The notes below the pieces were generated by a model. The model ran no database searches. It saw only the letters and a program-made list of their open reading frames with translations, and was not told the origin of the DNA. The position numbers were made by a program, and so were the translations under genes. Shown here in pieces: positions 26,522 to 33,682 of a DNA stretch of 64,000 nucleotides (position 1 is the stretch's first letter; the number at the start of each line of letters is the position of its first letter). The stretch is taken from positions 496,001 to 560,000 of the forward strand of contig NZ_JAQSLN010000003.1 of NCBI RefSeq assembly GCF_028649655.1, written 5' to 3'. Source of the DNA: Halobacteriovorax sp. GB3 (lineage in GTDB: Bacteria; Bdellovibrionota; Bacteriovoracia; Bacteriovoracales; Bacteriovoracaceae).

Positions 26522-27433
26522 TTATAAGAGAGGATTTCTCTCACTTGTTAATCGTGAAAGAGTTTCTTTAATTCTAAGAAGTTCTGTCGAATCTTTGTGA
26601 TAGACAATATAGAATTTCCCATTTGAAACTTCAAACTCTTCACCGAGAGTTTCTATTTTGTCTCTATAATAAGATCTTTTAAGAACATGATTTGGAACGA
26701 CAGCAAGGCCAAGACCTTCCCTAACGGCTTGTAGCATATTCCCGTGAGAGTTTACGATATAGCGGGCATTCGTCTTTTTAGGAGTTTTGCCAAAGCGCTC
26801 ACGACACCATTTTAAAAAGAGGTGATCTTCTTCTTGAAAGAGGATTGTCGGCATTTCAGATAGTTCTTCTAATGTTGTATCTTTTGAAATTCCAAAAGGA
26901 TTGTCTTTTGGATAAACAAGGCTGATTCTCTCTTCACTAAGAAGGACTTTTTCTCCAACGTTTGGAACAGCATCTTCCGGTAAAATCAAAAAGTCGAGAC
27001 GGAAGTTTTCAAAGCCTTTCACTAGATCTTCTTGAAAGCCCATTTGAACTGAAACAGTAAGATCAGAAAAGTCTTTACTGAGAGAGAGAAATTCAGGGGC
27101 AAGCCATGACTTTCCAACTCCAATTAAAGTACCAATTCTCACCTTTCCAGACATTGTATTTTTATCGTGTTGAATTTCTTCTAGAGTGACATCGAGATTG
27201 CTAATAAAACCTTCGGCCAAAGAAAAGAGCTTCTCCCCTTCAGGAGTAAGAACAACCTTTTTCCCCGTTCTTTTGAAAAGTTTTACTTCAATCTTTTTTT
27301 CTAAATTTTTAATAGACTGAGAGATCGCAGATTGAGTAACATTCAAGTCCTCTGCCGCCTTTGAAAAGCTATTGGCCTTAGCAACGGCCACTAAAGTTTG
27401 AAGTTGACTTGTCTCTATCATGTTTAAGTCCAT
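26522..27433 (-). CDS. LysR-type transcriptional regulator
   Basis: A 303-residue LysR regulator. The N-terminal winged helix-turn-helix is IETSQLQTLVAVAKANSFSKAAEDLNVTQSAISQSIKNLE, followed by the linker helix and the periplasmic-binding-like effector domain from about residue 95. Family members activate or repress genes in response to a small molecule. No divergent gene lies close, only 294 empty bases before the next plus-strand gene. ATG 27433 and ATG 27421 are both possible starts. It ends just 8 bases before the start of the CCA-type gene and may be co-transcribed. Confidence 0.93.
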   Translation of the reverse strand: MDLNMIETSQLQTLVAVAKANSFSKAAEDLNVTQSAISQSIKNLEKKIEVKLFKRTGKKVVLTPEGEKLFSLAEGFISNLDVTLEEIQHDKNTMSGKVRIGTLIGVGKSWLAPEFLSLSKDFSDLTVSVQMGFQEDLVKGFENFRLDFLILPEDAVPNVGEKVLLSEERISLVYPKDNPFGISKDTTLEELSEMPTILFQEEDHLFLKWCRERFGKTPKKTNARYIVNSHGNMLQAVREGLGLAVVPNHVLKRSYYRDKIETLGEEFEVSNGKFYIVYHKDSTELLRIKETLSRLTSERNPLL

Positions 27434-27727
27434 TAATTAATAGTTAACATTAGGTTAAACTTATACCTCAAATAATAAAACTCGTCTACACAAATCGACC
27501 AACTATCCAAAATTACATTATATCAACTTTCTTTTATTGATCTTAGTCCAGAACCTGAAATCAATCGAGAAACGCTCAAATAAGTAAAATAGTAAAAACA
27601 CAGGCCCTTTATGAACTCTCCCTTTATAAGAACCGCCTAAGAGTGAGAAAATTCTTGCTTTACTCTTATAATTTCGCTACTTATTGACCACCCGTATCAT
27701 TCTCACCACTGAAAGGAATTTCCAATT

Positions 27728-28432
27728 ATGAGATTTATCGCCCTTCTTTTAATTCTATCTATTCAAGTACAAGCTCGCTACTTTGAACAAATCAATGGAG
27801 CTAAAGACTTTGAATGCCCAGATTGGAAAACGACTCGTTTTTCTAATGTTCAAAACTGGGAAACTTTTGGTGTACTAACGGCCAAGAAATTTGGATACGA
27901 CCATGAAATTCCAATTGATAGAAAAGGCGTCGATTATATCTGGTGTGCTTCTGTACCTGAGAGAGGAAGTGAAAATAGAATTTGTAAAAAAAGTAGAGTA
28001 AACGTTTCGAGTTCTCGTCCATTCTATGCCATGAGAAATGAACTTCCAGATGGTGAGAAATCTCTAAAACTTTTTAAGACGAAAGAAGAACAGTACAACT
28101 TCTATCTAGACTTTGTTCTAGAGCACTATCACAGAGATCAAATCACGAGACCAAATGTTGGTGTCGTTCTTGAAATCTTATCGAGATACTATCTTCAACA
28201 ATATACGGGACGTTTTCCAAGTGATCGCTACAATGTTGGAGGTGGTGTTTCTTATCGAAAGAAATTAAATCAAAATACAGTTGGTGAACTCGATATTCTT
28301 GTGTGGGACAGAAAGACATGTAAAGTTGTTCTCGTAGGAGAATCAAAAGCAGCGGTAAGAAGGACAATGAAAAAGGCCCTAAAAAAGGCCAAGCATCAGC
28401 TTCAACGTTTTAGGAATTTTCTTCCTTACTAG
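27728..28432 (+). CDS. Exported PD-(D/E)XK-like nuclease domain protein
   Basis: A 234-residue protein with a short signal peptide (MRFIALLLILSIQVQA). Cysteines at FECPDW, IWCASV, RICKKS and KTCKVV could form two disulfides, fitting an exported protein. The C-terminal part reads GELDILVWDRKTCKVVLVGESKAAVRR, giving Asp and Glu-x-Lys of a PD-(D/E)XK site, preceded by a possible helix Glu in NVGVVLEILSRYYLQQY. This is a likely secreted nuclease; use against prey nucleic acid is inference. It resembles the C-terminal part of the exported protein at 12002-13144 in pattern, not in close sequence. Confidence 0.65.
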   Translation: MRFIALLLILSIQVQARYFEQINGAKDFECPDWKTTRFSNVQNWETFGVLTAKKFGYDHEIPIDRKGVDYIWCASVPERGSENRICKKSRVNVSSSRPFYAMRNELPDGEKSLKLFKTKEEQYNFYLDFVLEHYHRDQITRPNVGVVLEILSRYYLQQYTGRFPSDRYNVGGGVSYRKKLNQNTVGELDILVWDRKTCKVVLVGESKAAVRRTMKKALKKAKHQLQRFRNFLPY

Positions 28433-28884
28433 ATACGTCTTCGACCTATTTTAAAAAGACAGTAATCAATCAAGCGGTAAAAAGGTTTTACAAGAGAGTC
28501 TATAGGGCTCTCTTTTTTTGTCACGATTATCGTGCGAAGTCCCTCTAGCTTTGAAATCATAAGATCGCACTCAATTCTTTCAACACCATGATCTTCAAAA
28601 ACAAAGCGAAAAAAATGAAGGACCTGATCGTATTGAAAATCTGTAATCCCAAGAGTCAAATGAGTTTTTCTTAAATGATTCTCAAGTTTACCAATATCTT
28701 TATTTAGGATAAGATCTCTAAGTGCAAGAGCTTGCTTATTGACTAGGCTTTCAATATCAACTCCGACAAAATGAAACGCAATCTCAGGGTGATCAACTAG
28801 TTCACGATATAAACTAATGACCATTGAGCGGAAATTCTCTTCAGAATTAATATTCGAGAAAATTTGGGAATAAGAAGCGTTCAT
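28429..28884 (-). CDS. Truncated-haemoglobin-like protein
   Basis: A 151-residue protein starting MNASYSQIF at ATG 28884, with AAGGA five bases upstream; the frame continues upstream without a start signal. FRSMVISLYRELVDHPEIAFHFVG and RKTHLTLGITDFQYDQVLHFFRFVF fit the E-F-G-H helices of truncated globins, with the His of KTHLTLGI at the proximal (F8) place. It could bind haem and sense or detoxify O2 or NO. It lacks the usual N-terminal Phe-Tyr pair in clear form, so haem binding is not certain. It lies divergent from a histidine kinase 54 bases away. Confidence 0.6.
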   Translation of the reverse strand: MNASYSQIFSNINSEENFRSMVISLYRELVDHPEIAFHFVGVDIESLVNKQALALRDLILNKDIGKLENHLRKTHLTLGITDFQYDQVLHFFRFVFEDHGVERIECDLMISKLEGLRTIIVTKKESPIDSLVKPFYRLIDYCLFKIGRRRI

Positions 28885-28938
28885 AATAATCCTTCGAAAT
28901 ATTGAGAATAAAAACAGGATAGAGATTAAAATACTAAC

Positions 28939-30300
28939 ATGACCTCCATCTATCATAAGACGATCAAATTATACGGCAAACTATTCTACGCTCTCACAAA
29001 AGAGGGACTAGAAAAGAATGACCTTGAAAGAAGAAGGCTACACTCTTTCATACTCTCTGTCCTCAGTACTTCTCTATTGATGTGGTCTTATACTTTAATT
29101 GCACTCCTTTATTTTGAAAGTTCCATTCCTTTTTATGTGGGACTTGTTTGCTCTATCATTCACTTGTTAAGTGTCTTTACTTTAAGATGGTCTGCAAGTC
29201 GTCTCTTTGCCATCACTAATATAATGCTCGCAGCGGGAGTTATCCATCAAAGTACCTTTGCCTACTTTTCTGGAGGCTTTAATAGTAATATTTTAATTTG
29301 GTTTGGTGTCATCCCTTTTCTTGCAGGTCTTATTTGTGGAATTAAAGGGGCCCTACTTTGGTCACTCATTGTCGGCTTCCTCACAAGTATTTTTTTGGGC
29401 CTTCAATTAAGCGGCCACATTTTTCCTTATGACATTTCCGTTAAAGGGCATCTTCTCGCTCAAGGCTTCATTTGCTTCGGCTATATCTTTCTCTCAGGAC
29501 TTCTAATCTCTATCTATCTTGGATTAGAACACGGTTATCTAAAAATCCTCTCTGAAAAAAATAATAAAATTCAAAACTTACTCAGAGTCATTTTACACGA
29601 TATTTTAAACCCACTAACAATTGTCTATGGAGCAAGTTACCGCTTAAAGAAAATGGTCGAAAGAGATTTATTAAGTCTTGAAAAGGTTGAAAACGAGGTT
29701 CAAAAAATCGATAGGGCCTCAAAGACCATCACCAGTATCCTTGAGCAAGTTCGCAATATGCACACTTACGAGTCGAAGGAATTTATCAAGAGAACTCCAT
29801 GCTCGATGAAAGAGACGATAGAACATATTGAATTTCTCTTTCGTGAAAAACTCGATCAAAAGCAAATTGAACTTTCAGTTTTTGGTTTAGAAAACGATAT
29901 ATCTGTTCTTGCAGAAAAAACTATTTTAGAAAACCAAATCCTCGGTAACGTTATTTCCAATGCAATTAAGTTTTCAGATCAAAACTCAAAGCTGCATATT
30001 ACACTGAAAGAACATTTTGATTTTATATGTATTGAAGTCAAAGACTTTGGAATAGGAATTCCAAAAAAGATGCTCGATAAAATGAAGGACAATCACATCA
30101 ATGCCACAAGAAAAGGAACGAGTGGAGAAAAAGGAAATGGTCTAGGCGTTCTCATTTTAAAATCATTTACAGAGCTCTTTGATGGAGAGCTGACAATTGA
30201 TTCAAAAACAAAAGATGAATCACCAAAAGACCATGGAACATCTGTTAAAATTTACTTACGACCCGCAACGCTTAAAGCTGAGCATCAGCAACAGGAGTAA
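28939..30300 (+). CDS. Membrane sensor histidine kinase
   Basis: A 453-residue kinase. Five to six membrane segments occupy residues 35-200 with no large periplasmic loop, so the input is probably sensed in the membrane. The phosphoacceptor H-box is VILHDILNPLTIVYG (His near 218). The ATPase part follows: N-box ILGNVISNAIKFSD, G1 VKDFGIGIPKKM, G2 GEKGNGLGVLILK. The output partner is probably the stand-alone receiver encoded convergently at its 3' end, with which it overlaps by 29 bases. The TM pattern resembles the MASE-type modules but I do not assign one. Confidence 0.92.
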   Translation: MTSIYHKTIKLYGKLFYALTKEGLEKNDLERRRLHSFILSVLSTSLLMWSYTLIALLYFESSIPFYVGLVCSIIHLLSVFTLRWSASRLFAITNIMLAAGVIHQSTFAYFSGGFNSNILIWFGVIPFLAGLICGIKGALLWSLIVGFLTSIFLGLQLSGHIFPYDISVKGHLLAQGFICFGYIFLSGLLISIYLGLEHGYLKILSEKNNKIQNLLRVILHDILNPLTIVYGASYRLKKMVERDLLSLEKVENEVQKIDRASKTITSILEQVRNMHTYESKEFIKRTPCSMKETIEHIEFLFREKLDQKQIELSVFGLENDISVLAEKTILENQILGNVISNAIKFSDQNSKLHITLKEHFDFICIEVKDFGIGIPKKMLDKMKDNHINATRKGTSGEKGNGLGVLILKSFTELFDGELTIDSKTKDESPKDHGTSVKIYLRPATLKAEHQQQE

Positions 30301-30673
30301 AGCTCATAAGAGCTTTCATCTCTTCAAATAATTCATCAAAATCAAATGGCTTAATCAGATATTTTCGCACCTTTAAAGCATGTGCCCTCTTAAGACGATC
30401 CATGTCACTATGCATACTAATAACAAAAATTGGCGTGTGCTCATCTTCTTCTCTAATTAAAGAAATGAAATCGAGCCCATTCATAACAGGCATATCCAAG
30501 TCGGTAATGATCATGTCGATGTCTCCGCGCTCTTTATAGATTTCGAAGGCCTCTTGACCATTTTCCGCAAAGATATATTCGTTCTCAGAGAGATCTGAAT
30601 CTCTACCCAATTTACACTCAAATAGAAAGTGCACATCTTTTTCATCATCTACGATTAAAACTTTCTTTGTCAT
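30272..30673 (-). CDS. Stand-alone response-regulator receiver protein
   Basis: A 133-residue single receiver domain. LIVDDEKD carries the acidic pair, IITDLDMPVMNG the phosphoacceptor Asp, VISMHSD the Ser/Thr position, and YLIKPF the conserved Lys. No output domain is present, as in CheY-like or phosphorelay shuttle proteins. Its 3' end overlaps the histidine kinase gene by 29 bases on the other strand. A perfect TATAAT (plus-strand ATTATA at 30708-30713) lies 35 bases before the start, with no good -35. Confidence 0.93.
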   Translation of the reverse strand: MTKKVLIVDDEKDVHFLFECKLGRDSDLSENEYIFAENGQEAFEIYKERGDIDMIITDLDMPVMNGLDFISLIREEDEHTPIFVISMHSDMDRLKRAHALKVRKYLIKPFDFDELFEEMKALMSFTPVADAQL

Positions 30674-31080
30674 CCAATCCCTCTCACCTTACTTCTTCGA
30701 TTCACTGATTATAAGTTGAGTAAAGCCCAAATCACGGCCTTTTGTTAATATACTTTCAAACTTATTTCTTTTCGGTCACTTACATGACAAATATAAATAT
30801 GACTCTCTCTGGTGCTACGACTACTAAAAACGGCAAACTACATGTGCTATGGCCATTTTTTGTGTAAATCTTCACATTTCAGCGAGGTAACTCACCGATA
30901 AACCGTTAATTCTAATCGGCAGATCGAAGAAAAGTTTGAAAGGTAAAACGAAAAGAATAAATGACAAAACTAAAGATTCTTGATCTTCTATTAGATAAAA
31001 TACTGTTAACAATAGCATCTATTTACAACAGGGAATTTTTTTGAATTTTAGAGATATTTGTAGGACGGTCGCGTCTTTTC
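30674..31080. other. Gene-free region between receiver gene and repeat array
   Basis: About 400 bases without a convincing gene. The left end holds the receiver promoter. A 27-codon ORF (ATG near 30961) lacks a ribosome-binding site. One inverted repeat, CCGAT ... ATCGG near 30895-30920, is short. I see no known RNA motif. Confidence 0.5.
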
Positions 31081-31516
31081 TATTCACTCATTGTCATTAT
31101 CGAGAGCTCAGTCGAAAAGGCTCTTTTAAATCGAACTTTGTCTTACCTATTCGCCTATTGTCACTATCGTGACACTAGTCGAAAAGGCGATGATTAAAAA
31201 AAAAGCCCCGTGAGGGGCTCTTTTAAATCGAACTTTGTCTTACCTATTCGCCTATTGCCACTATCGTGACACTAGTCGAAAAGGCGATGATTAAAAAAAA
31301 AGCCCCGTGAGGGGCTCTTTTTGATCGAACTAAAGCTTCCCTATGTGCTCAGTTGTCACTATCGTGACACTAATCACAAAGGCGATGATTAAAAAAAAAG
31401 CCCCGTGAGGGGCTCTTTTAAATCGAACTTTGTCTTACCTATTCGCCTATTGTCACTATCGTGACACTAGTCGAAAAGGCGATGATTAAAAAAAAGCCCC
31501 GTGAGGGGCTCTTTTT
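31081..31516. repeat. Tandem array of about 97-bp hairpin-terminator units 3' of fusA
   Basis: Five units: 31081-31147 (67 bases, terminator part missing), 31148-31244, 31245-31341, 31342-31439 and 31440-31516. Each full unit has a hairpin with stem TGTCAC / GTGACA and TATC loop, outer arms TTCG / CGAA, then GGCGATGATT, an A-run, the stem AGCCCC / GGGGCT with GTGA loop, and a T-run. In unit four the outer arms read TGTG / CACA, a paired change on both sides. Terminator stems lie at 31204-31219, 31301-31316, 31399-31414 and 31495-31510. The better U-run faces the minus strand, downstream of fusA. Function may be insulation of fusA transcription or production of repeated small RNAs. Confidence 0.88.
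31495..31516 (-). terminator. fusA-proximal rho-independent terminator
   Basis: AGCCCC / GGGGCT stem with a TCAC loop on the minus strand and an eight-base U-run, starting a few bases after the fusA stop. It is the first of four near-identical terminators in the repeat array. Confidence 0.9.
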
Positions 31517-33682
31517 TTAATCATCGTTATCAAGTTTTTCTTTTCTTTCTGCGATAACTTTTTCTTGGATGTTTGATGGACAATCAACATACTTAGCGAA
31601 TTCCATTGTGTATGACGCTTTACCAGCAGACATAGAACGTAGGTCGTTAGAGTATCCAAACATCTCAGAAAGAGGAACCTCAGCGTTGATGATAACTTCT
31701 CCTCCCGGATCAGTCTCAGAACCTTGGATCATCCCTCTTCTAGAAGAAAGGTCACCAATTACTGAACCTTGATACTCATCAGGAGTTGTAACTTCAACTT
31801 TCATTACTGGTTCCATAATTACTGGATCAGCAGCTCTAATAGCTTTTCTCATTGCTTGTCTAGCAGCAATACGGAAGGCCATATCAGAAGAGTCAACATC
31901 GTGGTACTTACCATCTTGTAGGAAAACTTCACAGTTAATAACTGGGAACGCTGCAAGAGGTCCTTTATCCATAACGTCTTGGAAACCTTTTTCACAAGCT
32001 CCAATATATTCGTTAGGAATCGATCCACCTTTAATTTCGTTGTGGAATCTAAATACCTGATCTTCTTTTTCTTTGTTTTCATCAGTAAGTGGCTTAAGAA
32101 CACCAACAACTTGACCAAATTGACCAGAACCACCCGTTTGCTTCTTGTGAGTGTATTCGTAGTTAGTTTGAGTTCTAATTGTTTCACGGTAGTTAACCTG
32201 TGGCGCACCAACAGTTACTTCAGCACCGAATTCACGCTTAAGTCTTTCAACGTAAATTTCAAGGTGAAGCTCACCCATACCTGCAATTCTTGTTTCACCT
32301 GATTCTTCATCAGTGTAAACGTGGAATGTAGGGTCTTCTTTAAGGAATTTAGCAAGACCTTTAGACATCTTAGCTTGCTCGTTCTTATCCTTACATGAAA
32401 TCGAAAGTTCGATAACTGGAATTGGAACGTGAATCCCTTCAAGAGAAAGGTTAAGGTTGTCATCTTTACCAACGAAAGTATCCCCTGAAGCACAGTCGAT
32501 ACCTACGATAGCGATGATATCACCAGCGTGTGCTGAATCGATATTCTCTCTATCGTTAGAGTTCATACGAACCATACGTCCGATTCTAACTTTCTTACCT
32601 GTTCTTGTATTGTAAACAGTGTCACCCTTATTAAGAGTACCACGGTAAATTCTTGTATAAGTAAGCTGTCCAAATTGCTCATCAGTGATCTTGAATGCCA
32701 TAGCAAGTAGATCTTCTGCTGGATCTGGATTGATTTCTACTGTTTCATCATTATCAGAGTTAACAGCAGTTGGCGCAGCACAAGTAAGTGGTGAAGGAAG
32801 GTATCTTGCAACAGCTTCAAGAAGTGCTTGAACACCTTTGTTCTTGAATGCAGAACCCATATATACAGGAGTTAGTTGAAGTGACTGAACACCTTTTTTA
32901 ATACAAAGGTGAAGTTGCTCTTCAGTTGGCTCGTTACCCTCTAGGTAAGCTTCCATTACGTCATCATCAAATTCAGCTACAGCGTCAACCATTTCTGATC
33001 TTAGCTCTTCTACTTTATCAGCTAGGTCTGCTGGGCAGTCTTCGATTCTGATATTTTCACCGTTATCACCATCGTAGTACCAAGCTTTTCTAGTGATGAG
33101 GTCTACAGCACCTAGGAAACCGTCTTCAGCTCCGATAGGACATTGCATAAGAACAGCATTGTGGTTTAGCTTGTCTCTAAGAGCATCTCTACCATTGAAA
33201 GCGTTCGCTCCCATTCTGTCCATTTTGTTAAGGAAGGCCATTCTTGGTACGTTATAACGCTTCATTTGTCTGTCAACAGTAATAGACTGAGACTGAACAC
33301 CAGAAACAGAACAAAGTACAAGGATTGCACCATCAAGAACACGTAGTGATCTTTCTACTTCTACAGTGAAGTCAACGTGACCCGGAGTATCGATAATATT
33401 GATACGAGTATCTTTATCAACACCGTCAGCGAAAGTTGTTCCTTTACCGCTAGCACCTTTCCAGAATACTGTTGTAGCAGCAGATGTAATTGTAATCCCT
33501 TTTTCCTTCTCTAGTTCCATGTGGTCCATTTTTGCACCATCACCACCACCACGAACGTCTTCGATCTTGTGGATCATGTCACAGTAAAAAAGGATACGCT
33601 CAGTAAGAGTCGTCTTTCCTGAGTCAATGTGTGCCGAAATCCCGATGTTACGAGTTTTGGCCATTAGTTTGTTGTTAATCAT
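31517..33682 (-). CDS. fusA: Elongation factor G (mitochondrial/spirochaete-type)
   Basis: A 721-residue translational GTPase that moves tRNA and mRNA through the ribosome. G1 is AHIDSGKTT (Ser rather than the common Ala), the switch II region is DTPGHVDF, and G4 is NKMD. The HIDSGKTT variant and the early RGGGDGAKMDHMELEKEKGITI switch I are typical of the branch shared with mitochondrial EF-G1 and spirochaete/deltaproteobacterial EF-Gs. The start MINNKLMAKTRN at 33682 has GGAGAG five bases upstream. A sigma-70-type promoter lies about 65-95 bases before it. Transcription ends in a tandem terminator array. Confidence 0.97.
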   Translation of the reverse strand: MINNKLMAKTRNIGISAHIDSGKTTLTERILFYCDMIHKIEDVRGGGDGAKMDHMELEKEKGITITSAATTVFWKGASGKGTTFADGVDKDTRINIIDTPGHVDFTVEVERSLRVLDGAILVLCSVSGVQSQSITVDRQMKRYNVPRMAFLNKMDRMGANAFNGRDALRDKLNHNAVLMQCPIGAEDGFLGAVDLITRKAWYYDGDNGENIRIEDCPADLADKVEELRSEMVDAVAEFDDDVMEAYLEGNEPTEEQLHLCIKKGVQSLQLTPVYMGSAFKNKGVQALLEAVARYLPSPLTCAAPTAVNSDNDETVEINPDPAEDLLAMAFKITDEQFGQLTYTRIYRGTLNKGDTVYNTRTGKKVRIGRMVRMNSNDRENIDSAHAGDIIAIVGIDCASGDTFVGKDDNLNLSLEGIHVPIPVIELSISCKDKNEQAKMSKGLAKFLKEDPTFHVYTDEESGETRIAGMGELHLEIYVERLKREFGAEVTVGAPQVNYRETIRTQTNYEYTHKKQTGGSGQFGQVVGVLKPLTDENKEKEDQVFRFHNEIKGGSIPNEYIGACEKGFQDVMDKGPLAAFPVINCEVFLQDGKYHDVDSSDMAFRIAARQAMRKAIRAADPVIMEPVMKVEVTTPDEYQGSVIGDLSSRRGMIQGSETDPGGEVIINAEVPLSEMFGYSNDLRSMSAGKASYTMEFAKYVDCPSNIQEKVIAERKEKLDNDD

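Follow-up and report, generated by a model that had tools for sequence, protein, structure and literature searches.

A putative structured 3′-UTR element in tandem copies behind fusA of Halobacteriovorax sp. GB3, with relatives in a second genus of Bacteriovoracaceae

The array behind fusA

What kind of element is the hairpin array that directly follows the elongation factor G gene fusA in Halobacteriovorax sp. GB3, and does its folding matter as RNA, as DNA, or not at all? The window analysed here is a 64,000-nucleotide stretch of one contig with fusA on its minus strand, and TRF placed directly 3′ of this gene a tandem array with a period of 97 bp and 4.1 copies (31119-31515, score 673). A repeat search of the window gave unit spacings of 97, 97, and 98, and both searches bear out the tandem array of units of about 97 bases that a first-pass annotation of this DNA had described behind fusA. 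That annotation took each unit to be a hairpin plus a terminator. Both parts are present; in the fusA sense (minus strand), however, each terminator precedes its own hairpin, giving the order A1-B1-A2-B2-A3-B3-A4-B4-B5, where A denotes the terminator hairpin and B the second hairpin. Four complete terminators and a deleted fifth were seen as claimed. The unit without a terminator had been counted as the first, but since fusA lies on the minus strand, 31079-31120 is the last; this final unit, B5, is decayed and reaches to about 31079. The features are as follows.

31517-33682, minus strand: fusA (elongation factor G), an ORF of 721 aa with 63-94% identity to fusA from 80 genomes
31480-31526, minus strand: hairpin A1, predicted intrinsic terminator, 21-22 bp stem including the fusA stop codon (inverted repeat; -27.5 kcal/mol, z -9.3)
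31438-31479, minus strand: hairpin B1 (-18.3 kcal/mol, z -5.4)
31388-31418, minus strand: hairpin A2, predicted terminator, core stem 31399-31414
31340-31382, minus strand: hairpin B2, covarying variant (TGTG/CACA) with 1 extra nucleotide
31290-31322, minus strand: hairpin A3, predicted terminator, core stem 31301-31316
31243-31284, minus strand: hairpin B3, with a single U-A to U.G change
31193-31224, minus strand: hairpin A4, predicted terminator, core stem 31204-31219
31146-31187, minus strand: hairpin B4
31079-31127, minus strand: decayed hairpin B5 (31079-31120), inner stem broken (z 0.25), with the terminator remnant GAGCC

The A hairpins at fusA consist of AGCCCCTCACGGGGCT followed by a T run, four times on the minus strand, and this combination of a GC-rich stem and a U tract identifies hairpin A at this locus as a predicted intrinsic terminator. 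The terminator nearest fusA had been noticed before, with a shorter stem than the one found here, which takes in the stop codon. Hairpins B1 to B4 share one plan (3 bp, 1x1, 4 bp, A.G, 3 bp, G.A, 6 bp, and a GAUA loop) and fold with z values of -4.6 to -5.8; B5 is without a fold. Compared to shuffles, the inner hairpin core has 8 matches in the window versus 0.25 expected, and the whole 470-nt array folds with z = -11.9 on the minus strand and -10.4 on the plus strand.

The B hairpins of the window also vary among themselves. B2 differs from B1, B3, and B4 by 3 pairs altered on both sides, 2 of which make up the pair-keeping change of arms from TTCG/CGAA to TGTG/CACA that had been pointed out earlier and is present in B2; the third replaces C-G by U-A, and there is one wobble in addition (U-A to U-G). 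One-sided changes that keep pairing in B2, B3, and B5 give G.U in the fusA sense and A.C on the opposite strand. Because 17 of 500 shuffles equal the paired changes of B2, covariation within the window is weak evidence.

Each unit could in principle yield a small RNA of its own, either as a transcript ending at the next terminator or through release by RNase E from the fusA 3′ UTR. At about 95 nt, the stretch B-linker-A′ does resemble a hairpin with a terminator, and mRNA 3′ ends are a known source of small RNAs (reviewed in PMC9438474). However, a sigma-70-type scan found no sigma-70-like promoter within the array (1 in the region, elsewhere, versus 3.8 in shuffles), and a conserved single-stranded seed is absent beyond the short linker. 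Because no promoter per unit was seen, we regard an independent bank of small RNAs as very improbable, and the repeated small RNAs suggested in the first-pass annotation are unsupported. A tandem riboswitch was dropped as a candidate, the modules sitting behind fusA with no promoter.

In its own genome, the array is present at one locus only (five copies). Within 464 kb sampled from this genome, stretches that supplied the background, it is the sole non-coding tandem array with a period of at least 30, the other arrays in the sample appearing to be coding as judged by sequence, and the sole cluster of identical terminators. No such array follows fusA in relatives, where mostly one plain terminator is found; DNA similarity across 129 family genomes was confined to terminator cores, and phage and plasmid collections returned nothing or terminator-like scraps. 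The exact hairpin core was not found in viral contigs, and degenerate core patterns gave no matches or six chance matches that fold otherwise.

Confinement to one genome agrees with a neutral origin, in which a terminator region of the ordinary kind was duplicated in tandem and the both-arm changes arose by template switching in a palindrome without selection. The A1 stem holds an inverted copy of the fusA tail, and an inverted-copy mutation has thus probably happened here; one array unit is decayed; and the closest relative by FusA (94%), Bacteriovorax sp. DB6_IX, carries an unrelated 167-bp tandem duplication (2 x 167 bp, L003:2500-2837) at the same place, directly behind its fusA terminator. 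We nevertheless consider neutral duplication improbable, given that the same hairpin architecture, with other arms, stands at unrelated loci in another genus, and that palindrome correction would erase mismatches, yet the G.A mismatch and the GNNA loop are fixed (see below).

The surroundings of fusA differ among relatives. In a MAG (L014, from 6158), a hairpin stem behind fusA contains the stop codon, and another long hairpin, different in sequence, comes next; by eye, the layout is alike and the element different. Several relatives have a LysR-type gene directly after fusA, whereas in the window about 4 kb lie between the two (26522-31516), so this interval may be an insertion hotspot. It holds a receiver gene, a histidine kinase, a weakly globin-like gene, and an unknown protein, and the histidine kinase (28939-30300, plus strand) and the single-domain receiver (30272-30673, minus strand) are convergent with a 29-bp tail-to-tail overlap.

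Hairpin B in another genus

The five hairpins of the window, and no other sequences, went into a covariance model (R1), with which we searched 369 genomes. The best match outside the own genome reached 36.9 bits (E 1e-6 per genome) in G113, a member of genus g42 in the same family, versus 22.6 bits for the next-best such match and a maximum of 24.1 bits for a decoy made from the reversed alignment (R2) across the 369 genomes. The covariance-model search of related genomes that had been proposed as a check therefore did return hairpin B. The absence of a homologous array from relatives had been named in advance as a finding against the earlier reading; the array is indeed absent there, but the hairpin recurs in g42.

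With the G113 sequence added to the R1 alignment (model R3), the search recovered one more locus in G113 itself and three in its sister genome G112. R1, which is blind to these loci, gave them 31.3 (receiver gene), 29.4 (rpoD), and 26.1 and 18.2 bits (typA), while the best other R1 match in the same 32 kb had 12.9 bits and the best decoy match 10.8. A sequence profile from the g42 copies added what is probably another copy, downstream of tuf in G112 (E 0.022 versus 0.6 for the best decoy), weak by the model (9.7 bits) and sharing hairpin A, the AGTCGTCC linker, and the position. In g42 the element thus follows typA in two species, as well as rpoD, genes for a receiver and a histidine kinase, and probably tuf, at 2-4 loci per genome in about 1.03 Mb sampled of two g42 genomes. 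Weak R1 matches in G109, G060, G027, and G110 were set aside as chance, being apparently in coding sequence or poorly folding. In G050, R1 gives 22.1 bits to a possible further copy behind a tyrosine-integrase-like gene (L119:1501-1541, minus strand), a hairpin with TGTCAC/GTGACA arms and a comparable outer helix.

The plan is the same at all g42 loci: a short linker joins hairpin A to hairpin B, whose loop is of the GNNA type and whose G.A mismatch is fixed. The linker resembles AGTCATCC in g42 and is AATCATCGCC in the window. At typA (G112 and G113), rpoD, tuf, and the receiver gene, the start of hairpin A falls on the stop codon or no more than about 6 nt away, and the stop codon lies inside the hairpin A stem at rpoD and fusA. 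Two tandem A-B copies are found at the receiver-gene locus, and one copy with a partial second at the rpoD locus; the extra nucleotide of B2 occupies the same site as the extra nucleotide in the typA copy of G113 and in the receiver-gene copy. At fusA, hairpin A is itself the predicted terminator, whereas at the typA, rpoD, and tuf loci a separate terminator follows the element and hairpin A is not one. The new result is that, as far as sequence can tell, hairpin B recurs in another genus as a structured element that follows stop codons.

Covariation, strand, and mobility

The pairing of hairpin B was followed through nine related sequences found by a structure-aware search, in which 140 of 144 paired cells are standard and 11 of 16 pairs have double changes, covariation that is inflated by this selection and by alignment by hand, and that comes from only about six independent loci. 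None of 2000 shuffles paired as well, and all 9 sequences have the G.A mismatch. These hairpins form a family with a 3-1-4-1-3-1-6 stem, a G.A mismatch, a GNNA loop, and pairing that is kept despite the change of arms. The selection on structure that the arm change in the window had suggested is therefore supported more strongly than the window alone could show, the same plan with rewritten yet pairing arms being found at more loci in another genus.

The nine-sequence alignment contains 7 G.U and 0 A.C pairs, and folding of the sense strand beats that of the antisense strand in 9 of 9 hairpins, where orientation is unambiguous for fusA, rpoD, and tuf only and "sense" is ambiguous at the other loci because most g42 loci lie between convergent genes. 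Since G.U is present, A.C is absent, and the sense strand folds better, these data favour hairpin B acting as RNA with the same sense as the gene upstream. The choice between RNA and a cruciform, which the first-pass annotation had left undecided, thus tips toward RNA in the fusA sense, and the cruciform reading is weakened by the G.U pairs without A.C.

A serious rival to an RNA element, although one that we hold to be unlikely, is a mobile DNA palindrome of the REP or MITE kind, which inserts close to the ends of genes, was once captured behind fusA, and was then tandemly amplified, its folding serving mobilisation and not the host mRNA. Copies are dispersed over several g42 loci. The kinase-gene copy of G113 (93 nt, L117:1471-1600, minus strand) is flanked by an exact 18-bp direct repeat, TAGATATAATTTCTTGGA, in which the stop codon comes first. 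The tuf copy of G112, upstream of a shared similar terminator and tRNA, is missing in the sister G113; this direct repeat and the tuf difference suggest that gain or loss of the element is possible. Published REPs are likewise short imperfect intergenic palindromes, with stems that vary while pairing is kept, G-T pairs, and tandem reiteration including flanking DNA (PMC3733652). However, REPs number more than 100 copies per genome (PMC2817692) or are present in "high copies" (PMC3733652), whereas copy number here is very low, at one five-copy locus in the own genome and the few loci found per g42 genome. The element occurs as direct tandem copies only, with a constant two-hairpin plan from the stop codon, and the unpaired GTAG/CGTC tag of REPs is not seen: the flanks are AGTCATCC, AGTCTGCC, or AATCATCGCC, and CGTC occurs only in the weak tuf copy. 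Moreover, no linked transposase was seen, the strong sequence divergence between copies is unlike recent movement, and G.U without A.C points to RNA.

A candidate 3′-UTR element

Rfam 15 gave no family at the gathering cut-off in the window (weak matches only, all below it) and literature searches found no description of the hairpin A-B element, in agreement with the earlier remark that no named element of this layout is known. Type III toxin-antitoxin RNA repeats and tandem riboswitches are, like the array, tandem structured RNA repeats. The array differs from both in standing behind the adjoining gene and not before it, and from the former also in having neither a toxin gene nor a repeat-terminator-toxin order. 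Tandem intrinsic terminators share with the fusA locus a strong GC stem and a U tract, here repeated four times; in contrast, the terminator here alternates with a second conserved hairpin, and hairpin A is no terminator at the other three loci named above. The element is also similar to small RNAs derived from 3′ UTRs, such as SdhX (PMC6393394), in that it would give a structured RNA of about 90 nt at the 3′ end of an mRNA, with a terminator as its last part, but its arms vary freely while the shape is kept, and it is known here from sequence alone.

Together, the architecture, the recurrence at other genes, the covariation, and the sense-strand G.U pairs incline us, with somewhat better than even confidence, to the view that the array arose when a small structured 3′-UTR RNA element, one of a low-copy family in Bacteriovoracaceae, was amplified in tandem. 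The element begins with hairpin A at or just past the stop codon and continues through a short linker into hairpin B, with the GNNA-type loop and the fixed G.A mismatch; as RNA, it would form the 3′ terminus of the mRNA of the upstream gene. At fusA, where hairpin A is the putative terminator, transcripts would end at A1, and polymerases that read through would reach the next B-A modules and stop there, leaving nested 3′ ends that carry B hairpins. Hairpin B would most likely cap or mark the 3′ end, either as protection against 3′ exonucleases or as a site for an RNA-binding protein. Unequal recombination probably produced the additional copies, and a fail-safe against transcription running on from fusA into the receiver gene would be a by-product; strong insulation of the receiver gene, as raised in the first-pass annotation, is possible. 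Neither the orthologous tuf of the sister species nor the fusA of any relative carries the element, so any function it has would be dispensable.

A bolder version, which we consider doubtful, is a new regulatory RNA family in predatory bacteria that starts at the stop codons of the core translation and transcription genes fusA, tuf, typA, and rpoD, in which a dedicated factor would read the GNNA loop and the purine mismatches, the stability or termination of these mRNAs would be tuned jointly, and the copy number of the array would set its strength at fusA.

To our knowledge, little is known of bacterial structured 3′-UTR elements behind stop codons. If the element is mobile, it would be a low-copy REP-like element under strong structural constraint and would bear on how such palindromes persist. 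If it is instead the RNA module that we favour, its arms, free in sequence and conserved in shape, would make a clean covariance family, and the fusA array would be a natural copy-number experiment on mRNA 3′-end function.
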